A stretch of 64,000 bases of DNA, from positions 1 to 64,000 of the forward strand of contig JANQNO010000007.1 of assembly GCA_028279555.1 (NCBI GenBank), written 5' to 3'. The DNA is from Sphingorhabdus sp. Its GTDB lineage: Bacteria; Pseudomonadota; Alphaproteobacteria; Sphingomonadales; Sphingomonadaceae. A model generated the notes under the pieces. That model did no database searches. It saw only the letters and a list, made by a program, of their open reading frames with translations, and was not told where the DNA came from. The translations under genes were made by a program, and so were the position numbers. Positions 2,583-45,764 of the stretch are shown piece by piece (the stretch's first letter is position 1; each line of letters starts with the position of its first letter).

Positions 2583-3452
2583 ATGAAAATCATTGAAAAA
2601 TCGTATTTTTTGCCTGCAATCCTCGCGGTGGCAATGCCCGCCGAATCGCCTGTCAGCGCACAATCCGGACTGCCCGAAAATGGCTTTTCCCTGCCAGCGC
2701 AGGGGATCGGCTATGCCGATATTGCCGACCTCGTTACCGTCTCTCCCATGATCGTCGACTTGCAGATTCGCAAGATTCGCAAGCTGCCCGATTCGCAAAG
2801 CGTGGGCGTTCCCATCAACATCCAGCGCGCAGTGATAGAGGCCGATGTCCTGTCGCTTCTGCGCGGCCAGCAACGCGTGGCCGCACGGGTCAAATTCCTG
2901 CTCGATATTCCCAGGGATGCGCGCGGGCGCATACCCAAGCTGAAAAAGCGCCGTTATTTCGCAATGGCACGCGGCGTTCCCGGTCGCAGCGACATGATCC
3001 AGCTTGTCCGGCCCGATGCGATGATCGCTTTCAGCCAGACCAATAATGACATGGTGCGTGCGATCACCCGCGAAGCCGTTCAGATCGATGCGCCGCAAGC
3101 GATCACCGGTATCTCGAGCGCTTTTCACAGCCCCGGATCGATATTGGGCGAAGGCGAAACGCAGGTCTTTCTGACCACCGAGAATGGGCAGCCCTTCGGC
3201 CTGTCGATTGTGAGCCGCGTCGATGAGGAAAAGAAATGGACCGTTTCGACCAGCGAAGTCATCAGCGAAGCCGCGCCCGCGCCGCGGCGCAACACGCTTT
3301 TGTGGTACCGCCTGGCATGCGGTCTGCCTAAACAGCTGAGCCCCGAGCAGGTCGGCTCCGGCGAAGGTGCCCATGCAGCCAAAGCGCAGGCGGATTATCA
3401 ATTTGTCATTGATGCGCTCGGCCCATGCGGCCGCACCCGGCCGCAGCGCTAA
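2583..3452 (+). CDS. Conserved hypothetical secreted protein
   Basis: The chosen start gives 289 residues beginning with a signal-peptide-like segment (MKIIEKSYF, then a hydrophobic stretch ending near VSAQS). The frame is open upstream to 2508, but that extension would place the signal peptide internally. The rest is a soluble domain without recognised catalytic motifs; it contains a basic KLKKRR patch and ends with a Cys-containing segment (YRLACGLP). The gene stands alone, divergent from tonB, and its stop codon overlaps the stop of the convergent egtD by two bases. It resembles sphingomonad proteins of unknown function; I assign no role beyond likely export. Confidence 0.7.
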   Translation: MKIIEKSYFLPAILAVAMPAESPVSAQSGLPENGFSLPAQGIGYADIADLVTVSPMIVDLQIRKIRKLPDSQSVGVPINIQRAVIEADVLSLLRGQQRVAARVKFLLDIPRDARGRIPKLKKRRYFAMARGVPGRSDMIQLVRPDAMIAFSQTNNDMVRAITREAVQIDAPQAITGISSAFHSPGSILGEGETQVFLTTENGQPFGLSIVSRVDEEKKWTVSTSEVISEAAPAPRRNTLLWYRLACGLPKQLSPEQVGSGEGAHAAKAQADYQFVIDALGPCGRTRPQR

Positions 3453-4414
3453 GGTGCCATCCGCAGGGGTTGGGCCTCTGCCAGGACAAGCGAGAACCAG
3501 TCCTTTTCATCGCTCCAATCCATGATCGGCGTCCACGCGCCTGCCAGCAAGAGCGTATGCGCCGAGCGCAAGTCGTATTTGTGGCTGTTCTCGGTATGAA
3601 TGCTCTCTCCCGCCTGCATAGAGAATTCTTCACCAGCGATGGCAAAGCGCACATCGCTGCCTGCCACGAGATGCATCTCTATCCGGCTTTCGGCATCGTT
3701 CCAGATAGCCTTGTGATGGAACTTGCCAATATCGATGTCGGCCCCAAGCTCGCGGTTGATCCGTTCCAGCAGGTTCAAGTTGAACGACGCGGTCACGCCC
3801 TGCGCATCGTCATAGGCCGGGATCAGGATATCGCGCGGCTTGACCCGGTCGAAGCCGATCAGCAGCATCGCGCCTTCATCCAGCGTGTCGCGCATCGAAC
3901 GCAGCAGATTGACCGCGCTGTGCGGCACCATATTGCCGATCGTTGATCCGGGAAAGAAGCCAAGACGCTGCCCGTCTGCTACGCCGGTAGCCAGGCGGAT
4001 CGGCTTCATAAAGTCGGCTTCCACAGGATGGATCGGAAGGTCCGGAAAGTCCTTTTGCAATGCGCCTGCTGAACTGCGCAAAAAATCGCCTGAAATGTCG
4101 ATCGGAACGAAAGCAGACGGCAAGATCGCATTCAGCAGGAGCGGGATTTTGGTCACACTTCCAGCGCCAAATTCAACCAGCGCGCGGCCTTCGCCCACGA
4201 TTTCTGCCACTTGCGGAACAACCGCTTTGAGCAATGCAGTTTCGGTGCGTGTGGGATAATATTCGGGCAGCCGGGTAATCTCGTCGAACAGCTCCGATCC
4301 GGCAAGGTCATAAAGCCAGCGCGCCGGGACGGCCTTTTGCCGCTGTGACAGGCCAGCGATCACATCGCTCCGGAATTGCGGGTCGACGTCATTGCCTGCG
4401 GGATTAGATGTCAC
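3449..4414 (-). CDS. egtD: L-histidine N(alpha)-methyltransferase
   Basis: 321 residues. EgtD trimethylates histidine to hercynine with SAM, the first step of ergothioneine synthesis. Supporting features are the family block YDLAGSELFDEITRLPEYYP (about residues 35-54) and the SAM-binding loop EFGAGSVTKI (81-90), as well as the overall length. Its start overlaps the 3' end of egtB by 11 nt, which indicates translational coupling in an egtB-egtD operon. No egtC or egtE is visible, as expected for the short proteobacterial pathway, in which EgtE-type lyases lie elsewhere. Confidence 0.93.
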   Translation of the reverse strand: MTSNPAGNDVDPQFRSDVIAGLSQRQKAVPARWLYDLAGSELFDEITRLPEYYPTRTETALLKAVVPQVAEIVGEGRALVEFGAGSVTKIPLLLNAILPSAFVPIDISGDFLRSSAGALQKDFPDLPIHPVEADFMKPIRLATGVADGQRLGFFPGSTIGNMVPHSAVNLLRSMRDTLDEGAMLLIGFDRVKPRDILIPAYDDAQGVTASFNLNLLERINRELGADIDIGKFHHKAIWNDAESRIEMHLVAGSDVRFAIAGEEFSMQAGESIHTENSHKYDLRSAHTLLLAGAWTPIMDWSDEKDWFSLVLAEAQPLRMAP

Positions 4415-44594: not shown

Positions 44595-44742
44595 CGCCAA
44601 CCGGTGGCTCGGCCCGCGGCGAAGGTCAACCGCAATGTGAAGCTGAATGGCCGATGAACAACAATCCTAGATGTTGGGGAAAATTCCCAATATTTGGAAT
44701 CATGATGCTTGTCTGACAGCACGCTGGATTAGTTAAGTGCCT

Positions 44743-44754
44743 ATTATGCATAAT
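44743..44754. promoter_or_regulatory. Palindrome ATTATGCATAAT upstream of the sigma-54 promoter
   Basis: A perfect 12-bp dyad ending 12 nt before the -24 GG of the sigma-54 promoter. It may be an upstream activator or IHF-type site, or chance in an AT-rich gap. Confidence 0.3.
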
Positions 44755-44764
44755 TTAAACTAAA

Positions 44765-44782
44765 TTGGCACGTTCTCTGCTA
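44765..44782 (+). promoter_or_regulatory. Sigma-54 (-24/-12) promoter for the micro-protein/PspC unit
   Basis: TTGGCACGTTCTCTGCTA contains the GG-N10-GC core (GG at 44767-44768, GC at 44779-44780) and the TGGCAC half of the consensus. Transcription would start near 44792, about 60 nt before the first micro-protein ATG. In enterobacteria, psp operons are transcribed from sigma-54 promoters by PspF, which fits the downstream pspC. Confidence 0.65.
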
Positions 44783-44851
44783 CGCTTTGGGTGTAACCAA
44801 CAGAGATTATCAAACGAAACCAACCAAGTTCAAATTGAAAGGAAAATGAAA

Positions 44852-44971
44852 ATGACCCTCTCCACTTCCAAGCATTTCACCGCAGCATTCGCAGCTCTCT
44901 TCACCGCCGCTCTTTTTGTCGGCACGAGCATTGCTCCTGCTGTTAACGTCTATTCTTCGGTCGCCGCATAA
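44852..44971 (+). CDS. 39-residue membrane micro-protein, first tandem copy
   Basis: It reads MTLSTSKHFTAAFAALFTAA and then LFVGTSIAPAVNVYSSVAA. One hydrophobic helix at about 9-28 is flanked by a short polar start and an AVN-Y-S tail. An ATG two codons earlier exists, but the parallel second copy starts at MTLS, and AAAGGA sits 9 nt before this ATG. It is 27 of 39 residues identical to the next gene, so the two are recent duplicates. First gene after the sigma-54 promoter. Confidence 0.72.
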   Translation: MTLSTSKHFTAAFAALFTAALFVGTSIAPAVNVYSSVAA

Positions 44972-45009
44972 CCGGCACCACAATAAACAATCATAAAAAG
45001 GAAAAAACG

Positions 45010-45129
45010 ATGACCCTCTCCGCTTCAAACCACCTCGCCGCCGCTTTCGCCGCTGTGCTCACCGCCATCCTTTTCGTTGGCACCAGCGTAGCTCCGGCAG
45101 TGAACGCCTATGCAAGTCTGGCTGCCTGA
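45010..45129 (+). CDS. 39-residue membrane micro-protein, second tandem copy
   Basis: It reads MTLSASNHLAAAFAAVLTAI and then LFVGTSVAPAVNAYASLAA, with AAAAAGGAAAAAA before the ATG. It has the same length and layout as the first copy, with conservative substitutions at third-position-like spacing, suggesting selection on the protein. A small CTGCC/GGCAG hairpin overlaps the stop. pspC follows 51 nt later. The family is unknown to me; a membrane-stress micro-peptide is a reasonable inference. Confidence 0.72.
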   Translation: MTLSASNHLAAAFAAVLTAILFVGTSVAPAVNAYASLAA

Positions 45130-45180
45130 CCGGCAGTTAGCCAAATAGTTTCAACACTCTCTTCGACAAAGGAAAGCTTA

Positions 45181-45357
45181 ATGTCTAAACTCGTTTTGGA
45201 TCGCGCCAATAAAAAACTGCTCGGCGTATGCGCTGGCCTCGCCAACTGGTCGGGAATTGATGTCGGCATAATGCGGATCATCTTCGTCCTCGCCACGTTG
45301 GTTGGCGTCGGATCACCGATCCTGATTTACGTTATTTTAGCCTTGATACTTGACTGA
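45181..45357 (+). CDS. pspC: PspC domain protein
   Basis: 58 residues from MSKLVLDRANKKLLGVCAGL with one transmembrane helix (about 30-55). KLLGVCAGLANWSGID, then the MRIIFVLATLVG helix, is the PspC domain of the phage-shock response, an inner-membrane sensor of envelope damage. A GACAAAGGAAAG ribosome site precedes it. It consists of little more than the domain. No pspA, pspB or pspF is present in this window. Confidence 0.88.
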   Translation: MSKLVLDRANKKLLGVCAGLANWSGIDVGIMRIIFVLATLVGVGSPILIYVILALILD

Positions 45358-45428: not shown

Positions 45429-45764
45429 ATGGCGGGCGACAACTCCGAAGGCGAAGACCATGGTGTCAATGCCCGTGAGCATGGGCGTGACGCCGTGGCC
45501 ATCTATGCCGATATCCGCGAGCATGGTGCCGGCAAATACAAGGTTCACATCATCGATCTGTCGCAATCGGGTTTTCGGATCAAAACCTCCTCGGTCTTGC
45601 GCGATGACCGCTCTCTTTTTCTGACCATTCCCGGCTATGCGCCGCTTGAAGCCAGAGTGGCTTGGCATCGTGGCAATGAATATGGCTGCCGTTTCCTAAG
45701 CCCGCTGCATGAAGCGATTTACGAGCATATCGTAAAAACCCACCCCTCGTTGAAGGTAGAGTGA
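45429..45764 (+). CDS. PilZ domain protein
   Basis: 111 residues from MAGDNSEGED with an AAGGTGAG ribosome site. PilZ pattern: the NAREHGRDAVAIYAD strand, then HIIDLSQSGFRIKTSS, matching D-x-S-x-x-G, and the LEARVAWHRGNEYGCRFLS end. The upstream basic residues (RxxxR-like) are present as REHGR, so c-di-GMP binding is plausible. Its stop overlaps the GTG start of the nuclease gene, implying coupling. Confidence 0.82.
   Translation: MAGDNSEGEDHGVNAREHGRDAVAIYADIREHGAGKYKVHIIDLSQSGFRIKTSSVLRDDRSLFLTIPGYAPLEARVAWHRGNEYGCRFLSPLHEAIYEHIVKTHPSLKVE

Follow-up and report, generated by a model that had tools for sequence, protein, structure and literature searches.

A probable satellite unit of the phage-shock regulon in sphingomonads, with a sigma-54 promoter, tandem micropeptides and a domain-only PspC

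Among envelope-stress systems, the phage-shock (Psp) response is a textbook example, and most work on it has been done in enterobacteria. The psp operons of enterobacteria use sigma-54 and PspF, and the control of PspF by PspA has been established for E. coli. One relative of the sphingomonads is Zymomonas. The available part of one review covers psp expression in this organism under ethanol stress (PMC11186258). According to the accessible part of PMC12719787, the small E. coli membrane protein YohP reduces membrane potential and acts as an inducer of PspA and PspC. LiaI/LiaH of Bacillus is named in the accessible text of the Psp survey PMC11237479; in that text and in the corresponding portion of a second survey, PMC9239133, no word begins with Sphingo and no micropeptides of the kind described here are named. 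The available part of PMC3162934 contains nothing on the subject. We found no description of such micropeptides in print, an absence that should be taken as provisional.

Here we describe a locus in a 64-kb window (the whole stretch of DNA that was analyzed) from a 2.75-Mb sphingomonad genome that is 99.9% complete. The locus probably belongs to the phage-shock (PspF/sigma-54) regulon as a satellite operon that encodes inner-membrane stress micropeptides and a minimal PspC; we put the probability of this reading at roughly 0.7.

Layout and promoter of the unit

The unit and its neighbors comprise the following features:
up to 44600, minus strand: recF, the upstream neighbor, named from a RecF/RecN/SMC domain match
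44666-45357, plus strand: the unit, in which a double dyad comes first and the sigma-54 site second, followed by a pair of 39-codon ORFs and finally the PspC-domain gene of 58 codons
44666-44699 (core 44666-44697), plus strand: predicted PspF-type upstream activating site (UAS), the double dyad CCTAGATGTTGG-N8-CCCAATATTTGG, identified by PWM score
44743-44754, no strand assigned: perfect palindrome ATTATGCATAAT, found once in the window, not conserved and probably incidental
44765-44781, plus strand: sigma-54 -24/-12 promoter TTGGCACGTTCTCTGCT, near-consensus, with a sigma-54-like site at the corresponding position of all 30 top-ranked loci
44852-44971, plus strand: micropeptide 1, 39 residues with a single hydrophobic segment, ending SSVAA (41 residues from an alternative start at 44846)
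45010-45129, plus strand: micropeptide 2, 39 residues, a tandem paralogue identical to peptide 1 at 28 of 39 positions, ending SLAA
45181-45357, plus strand: mini-PspC, 58 residues, PspC domain only (PF04024, E 2e-17)
45429-45764, plus strand: PilZ-domain gene, the downstream neighbor, on the same strand as the unit

A preliminary description of this DNA had already placed a GG-N10-GC sigma-54 promoter here, followed on one strand by two 39-residue ORFs and a PspC-domain gene with ribosome sites. Its coordinates are right; its count of 27 identical residues between the peptides becomes 28 on recounting. AGGA-type ribosome sites precede both peptide ORFs and the PspC gene, all on the plus strand. 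The 39-residue start of peptide 1 is favored because AGGA lies about 8 nt before 44852 but just 2 nt before 44846. The PilZ gene was considered as a further member of the unit and rejected, as a simple motif finds a PilZ-like ORF close behind pspC in only 3 of 32 sphingomonad loci. These three are the nearest kin.

The window PspC is a domain-only mini-PspC. It belongs to the PspC domain family by PF04024 (63.1 bits against a cut-off of 25). Against the TIGR02978 equivalog it scores 51.9 bits, below the cut-off of 104, and aligns to positions 3-59 of the 121 in the model; the PspC encoded in the canonical psp operon of this genome passes that model with 125.5 bits. The best AlphaFold2 model of the mini-PspC has three predicted helices (13-24, 28-41 and 45-57; pLDDT 86.5, pTM 0.66), with pLDDT ranging from 62 to 86 across the five models.

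The genome matches the pattern TTGGCACGN5TGCT perfectly at 3 sites, including the promoter sequence TTGGCACGTTCTCTGCT, and carries a single copy of rpoN, so the unit has both a -24/-12 promoter and a genomic source of sigma-54. Genome-wide, the pattern with one mismatch is weakly enriched (28 matches vs 15 for reversed controls). A sigma-70 promoter was rejected as an alternative; there are 3 weak sites vs 1.0 expected. The genome has ten PF00158 matches, including seven strong sigma-54 activators (172-244 bits), one of which is PspF.

Which activator might act at this promoter? The PWM for the UAS is a 34-nt motif trained solely on 26 pspF-pspA promoters and then applied to the unit promoters; the 26 come from 30 pspF loci after omission of four without a credible promoter (L139, L142, L151 and L157). 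Both these 30 pspF loci and the first 30 unit loci are best-scoring matches and hence selected by similarity, with the second copy of the duplicated genome G234 skipped. The null is a Markov model with 2050 shuffles, with a 99% level of 4.3 bits and a maximum of 18.8. The double dyad of the window unit scores 28.3 bits, or 27.9 when the three psp promoters of its own genus are left out of the training, and is the best site on either strand of the window, the next different site reaching 5.5 bits. It lies 65 nt from the -24 element, the same distance as in pspA promoters. Among the 30 unit promoters, this gap is 62-66 nt in 28 and 75 nt in two; 29 exceed the null 99% level and 20 the null maximum. 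The 99% level is also exceeded by 8 of 11 other micropeptide promoters and, in the next-ranked rows, by 35 of the 36 loci with a sigma-54 site (the exception is L312). Unit L091 and the promoters L128a, L129 and L135 fall below the null level. An unseeded motif search with the unit promoters alone returned the same motif as the pspF-pspA promoters. The E. coli K-12 pspF-pspA region has a weak match of 8.75 bits upstream of its sigma-54 site. By comparison, six other sigma-54-like sites in the source genome, among them sites labeled glnK and flagellar region from their downstream ORFs, score between -7 and -20 bits. The combined UAS and sigma-54 pattern occurs 46 times in 59 genomes vs 18 for reversed controls. 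In the source genome it has 6 matches; three are this unit, a second unit described below and pspA, and one of the other three lies inside recF.

Thus, the unit and pspA promoters have a predicted PspF site in common, and PspF very probably controls the window unit. The activator of the unit probably binds the double dyad at 44666-44697 and not ATTATGCATAAT, which the preliminary description had suggested as a possible activator or IHF site. The palindrome does exist at 44743-44754, but as an activator site it was rejected: of 71 promoter stretches compared, only that of the window contains it, the 70 others including 4 badly placed pspF loci.

Distribution of the unit and its relation to the main psp operon

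The preliminary description had called for a search of sphingomonad genomes for short peptides and pspC behind a sigma-54 box, and the arrangement proves to be widespread. The 58-residue PspC is matched in 233 of 249 family genomes, a number that is not a count of units because the PspC of the main operon matches too. In the top 30 PspC loci from the 249 genomes, the source genome included, a sigma-54 site, one or more peptide ORFs and pspC were present in 30 of 30, with one to four ORFs of 28-44 codons, each with a ribosome site, ahead of pspC. The micropeptide filter requires a ribosome site and, in later counts, also hydrophobicity and a sigma-54 site. In this strict form it was passed by 34 of the next 39 ranked rows. 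Of the remainder, the filter finds no peptide in L303 and L316, which do have the promoter and UAS, and L300, L304 and L319 have none of these, with pspA/B-like sequence upstream in L304 and L319. A scan of named genomes covered the best 80 of 397 relatives, with loci sorted by record title. Among these 80, the unit filter was passed by 31 of 40 sphingomonad-type loci, including L182, whose record title says no more than Alphaproteobacteria; L167 has only the promoter and UAS, and L169, L186, L188, L192, L197, L207, L230 and L239 have neither. None of the other 40 PspC loci in the best 80, from Bacteroidetes, Vibrio, Firmicutes and others, passed, although one of them, L181, has a sigma-54-like site without a UAS or peptide. 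The unit arrangement is not a chance occurrence. A protein search of plasmids returned 8 records, including one sphingomonad pspC at 45% identity.

The preliminary description placed the peptides in the first positions that pspA/pspB normally hold. They are no replacement for these genes in a rearranged psp operon. The same genome has its own pspF on contig C5 (locus L042), divergent from pspA-pspB-pspC, with three products passing NCBIfam equivalog cut-offs, and this canonical operon rules out rearrangement of an only psp operon. In addition, neither pspA nor pspB adjoins the mini-PspC. The window unit is instead a second PspF-type unit, satellite to the canonical operon and not a modified version of it.

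The unit and pspF tend to be found in the same genomes. PspF scores above its curated cut-off in 231 of 249 genomes, and rpoN is present in 244. Of the 16 genomes without a PspC match, 13 also fall under the PspF cut-off, while rpoN is present in each of these; PspF is present in the remaining three (G082, G190 and G231). Among the 69 top rows are 64 unit-bearing genomes, 63 of them with PspF above the cut-off. The exception is G065, a 120-contig draft whose best PspF match (E 1.7e-123) is under the cut-off. G219 has neither PspF nor the unit, and its pspC adjoins pspA/B.

Some micropeptide units have no pspC nearby. For example, the second unit of the source genome (L117, contig C3, 17000-24000) has a sigma-54 site, CTGGCACGCGATCTGCA, at 3225, a PspF-type site of 22.2 bits, and peptides at 3315-3425 (36 residues) and 3461-3580 (39 residues), with an aldehyde dehydrogenase gene 55 nt behind them. 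Ten further loci, L118-L127, from four genomes of genus g89 (G203, G089, G243 and G153), have two or three tandem peptides and no PspC in the stretch; a sigma-54 site is above threshold in seven, the others being L118, L125 and L127. These micropeptide-only loci (L117-L127) mean that partnership with PspC is not the whole function of the peptides. In three genomes of genus g77 (L129, L134 and L135), a peptide ORF abuts a pspA gene, which passes the PspA cut-off in L129 and L134 and was called from its frame in L135. In G068, units at 2919 and 4648 of locus L128 flank a recF-like gene, one with pspC and the other with three peptides only.

Micropeptides also occur in the main operon. A leader ORF, defined as having 40-75 codons, a hydrophobic segment, a ribosome site and a start no more than 110 nt from the promoter and before the pspA motif, precedes pspA in 21 of 26 pspF-pspA promoters, that of the source genome included. 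Hence, micropeptides head both kinds of PspF-type transcript. The source genome's leader peptide is a 63-residue, single-helix peptide ending GYLA (about 5735-5995 of L042), and A is the last residue in 21 of 21 leaders. By sequence, the unit and leader peptides appear to have features in common but no demonstrable homology. Outside the family, a class-wide search found PspF matches at E 1e-125 or better in 8 of 84 genomes; in four of these eight, pspA is preceded by a small membrane ORF of another kind, and by the filter the other four have none. In those four (L277, L278, L279 and L282), the small ORF lies between the sigma-54 site and pspA and has a C-terminal hydrophobic segment. It is possible that these ORFs are a second, independent type of leader in other alphaproteobacterial families.

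The micropeptides and their possible roles

Are the short ORFs made for their peptides or for the act of translating them? A two-row profile of the window peptides finds matches beside pspC in relatives. Over 55 ungapped peptide pairs from different loci, which are not independent but give the same picture as single close pairs, pN/pS is 0.248 in frame, compared with 1.24 and 2.94 in the two alternative frames, and differences at codon positions 1, 2 and 3 number 290, 124 and 693. The low in-frame ratio points to selection on the encoded peptide, in answer to the check on homologues that the preliminary description had suggested. The peptide frames are under purifying selection at the amino-acid level. 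The window peptides match no family in Pfam or NCBIfam, and the two peptides of the second unit and the psp leader of the source genome match none in NCBIfam.

These data bear on the idea that the ORFs are regulatory leader peptides for pspC and pspA, acting by attenuation or translational coupling rather than through functional products. Their position between the promoter and the main gene in both kinds of operon fits this idea. It is nonetheless unlikely, given that the peptide sequence is not free to vary, that the ORFs occur in as many as four tandem copies, and that peptide-only loci have no PspC in the stretch. There was also no structured-RNA match in Rfam up to E 1, which rules out a known structured RNA as the explanation.

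The anatomy of the peptides is consistent across 100 distinct unit peptides, drawn from 61 sources that are not independent, some genomes being in both this set and the pair set. First, hydrophobicity is strongest in a stretch that begins at about residue 10, behind which a tail of about 12 residues remains. Second, charge is nearly absent from the tail, with 12 charged residues among the 1200 at the last 12 positions. Third, every one of the 100 peptides terminates in A, I, V or L (A 62, I 24, V 12, L 2), against a fraction of 0.465 for these residues in the preceding tail, and V, L, F, I or M occupies the penultimate position in 93. Outside the set of 100, one peptide of the peptide-only unit in L128 (4304-4185) ends in S. 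In L096-L098 (genus g24), the peptides have only 28-29 residues, occur in three or four copies, and are hydrophobic to the end.

An end so constant suggests that something reads the C-terminus. Such ends (VAA, LAA, VLA or VIA, for example) may resemble FtsH and ssrA tails and the preferences of FtsH, Prc and PDZ domains. The peptides might therefore be protease decoys or degron-tagged signals whose C-terminus is bound by a membrane or periplasmic protease or PDZ domain of the FtsH, Prc or DegS type; made under stress, they would saturate or reprogram it. The invariant last residue, the hydrophobic penultimate position, the uncharged tail and the A that ends every leader peptide all agree with this. 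However, burial in the membrane could by itself account for a nonpolar end, and the S end in L128 breaks the rule; we consider the decoy role doubtful.

Could the hydrophobic segment be a signal peptide, with the unit secreting short peptides of about 10 residues? Many peptides have a P-A step after the helix, including APA in both window peptides. However, the first ten residues of the 100 peptides contain 77 K/R vs 57 D/E and so form no consistent positive N-region, and many peptides have VLPA or IVPA forms that lack a small residue at -3, making secretion extremely improbable. A toxin-like, depolarizing role, with the Psp system controlling a self-inflicted slow-down, would fit the size and hydrophobicity of the peptides and the effects described for YohP on membrane potential, PspA and PspC (PMC12719787, in its accessible part). 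Nevertheless, purifying selection acts on the peptides, and many genera retain them next to pspC; we regard such a role as highly unlikely.

The preferred reading is thus a satellite operon of stress effectors. The gene structure, the conservation of promoter and UAS, the purifying selection and the UAS in common with pspF-pspA have been established by computation, and they support the sigma-54 control, the real micropeptides and the tie to the Psp system that the preliminary description proposed. A mechanism can be sketched around them. If the E. coli model carries over, inner-membrane stress would free PspF from PspA. Freed PspF would bind the double dyad at 44666-44697 and act on sigma-54 polymerase at 44765-44781, presumably giving a single transcript for two single-span micropeptides and a minimal PspC-domain protein. 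The micropeptides would insert in the inner membrane and would most likely be small stress effectors there, probably together with the mini-PspC. The preliminary description had likewise suggested membrane-stress effectors or PspC partners. Their nonpolar C-terminus, which is conserved, probably serves as a recognition tail through which the peptides are turned over or bind a partner.

Implications and comparison with known systems

What are the implications of such a unit for the phage-shock response? First, relatives keep both the arrangement and the type of control site of the main operon, so the unit looks like an overlooked, peptide-based arm of the response. A bacterial family appears to head most of its PspF-type transcripts, the pspA operon included, with membrane micropeptides so small that annotation may miss them; comparative Psp surveys, in their available text, worked with known domains. 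Second, the analysis yields concrete candidate Psp components and a PspF-type site motif for sphingomonads. Third, duplication of the peptides, peptide-only units and the absence of the unit together with pspF provide a natural experiment on small stress-induced membrane proteins. Fourth, and speculatively, sphingomonad PspF transcripts may mostly start with dedicated single-span micropeptides whose nonpolar C-terminus is the working part, read by a membrane or periplasmic protease or by a PDZ domain. We give this little credence, but if true, the sphingomonad phage-shock response would reprogram envelope proteolysis through a multiplying peptide family and not act through PspA and PspBC alone.

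There are likenesses to several known systems. In LiaI/LiaH of Bacillus, as here, a small membrane protein is paired with a Psp-type stress response. Unlike the unit, that system has two-component control, a larger protein and no sigma-54. The window protein has its domain in common with PspC as modeled by TIGR02978 and PF04024, at 58 residues against 121. YohP, like the window peptides, has fewer than 50 residues, is hydrophobic and is linked to membrane stress; it is not named as a PspF target in the accessible part of PMC12719787, whereas the window peptides have PspF-type promoters, are duplicated and have a common nonpolar C-terminus. The closest likeness is to the PspF/sigma-54 regulon of enterobacteria, which has the same -24/-12 promoter, PspF-type site at a fixed distance and small membrane products. 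The separation of the unit from the main operon also recalls enterobacteria, in which pspG is an orphan beside pspABCDE. The annotation of E. coli K-12 has no CDS in the pspF-pspA interval, in contrast to the leader ORFs of sphingomonads. The sphingomonad system differs from the enterobacterial regulon in its micropeptides of 28-52 residues, often in tandem, and in its domain-only PspC.
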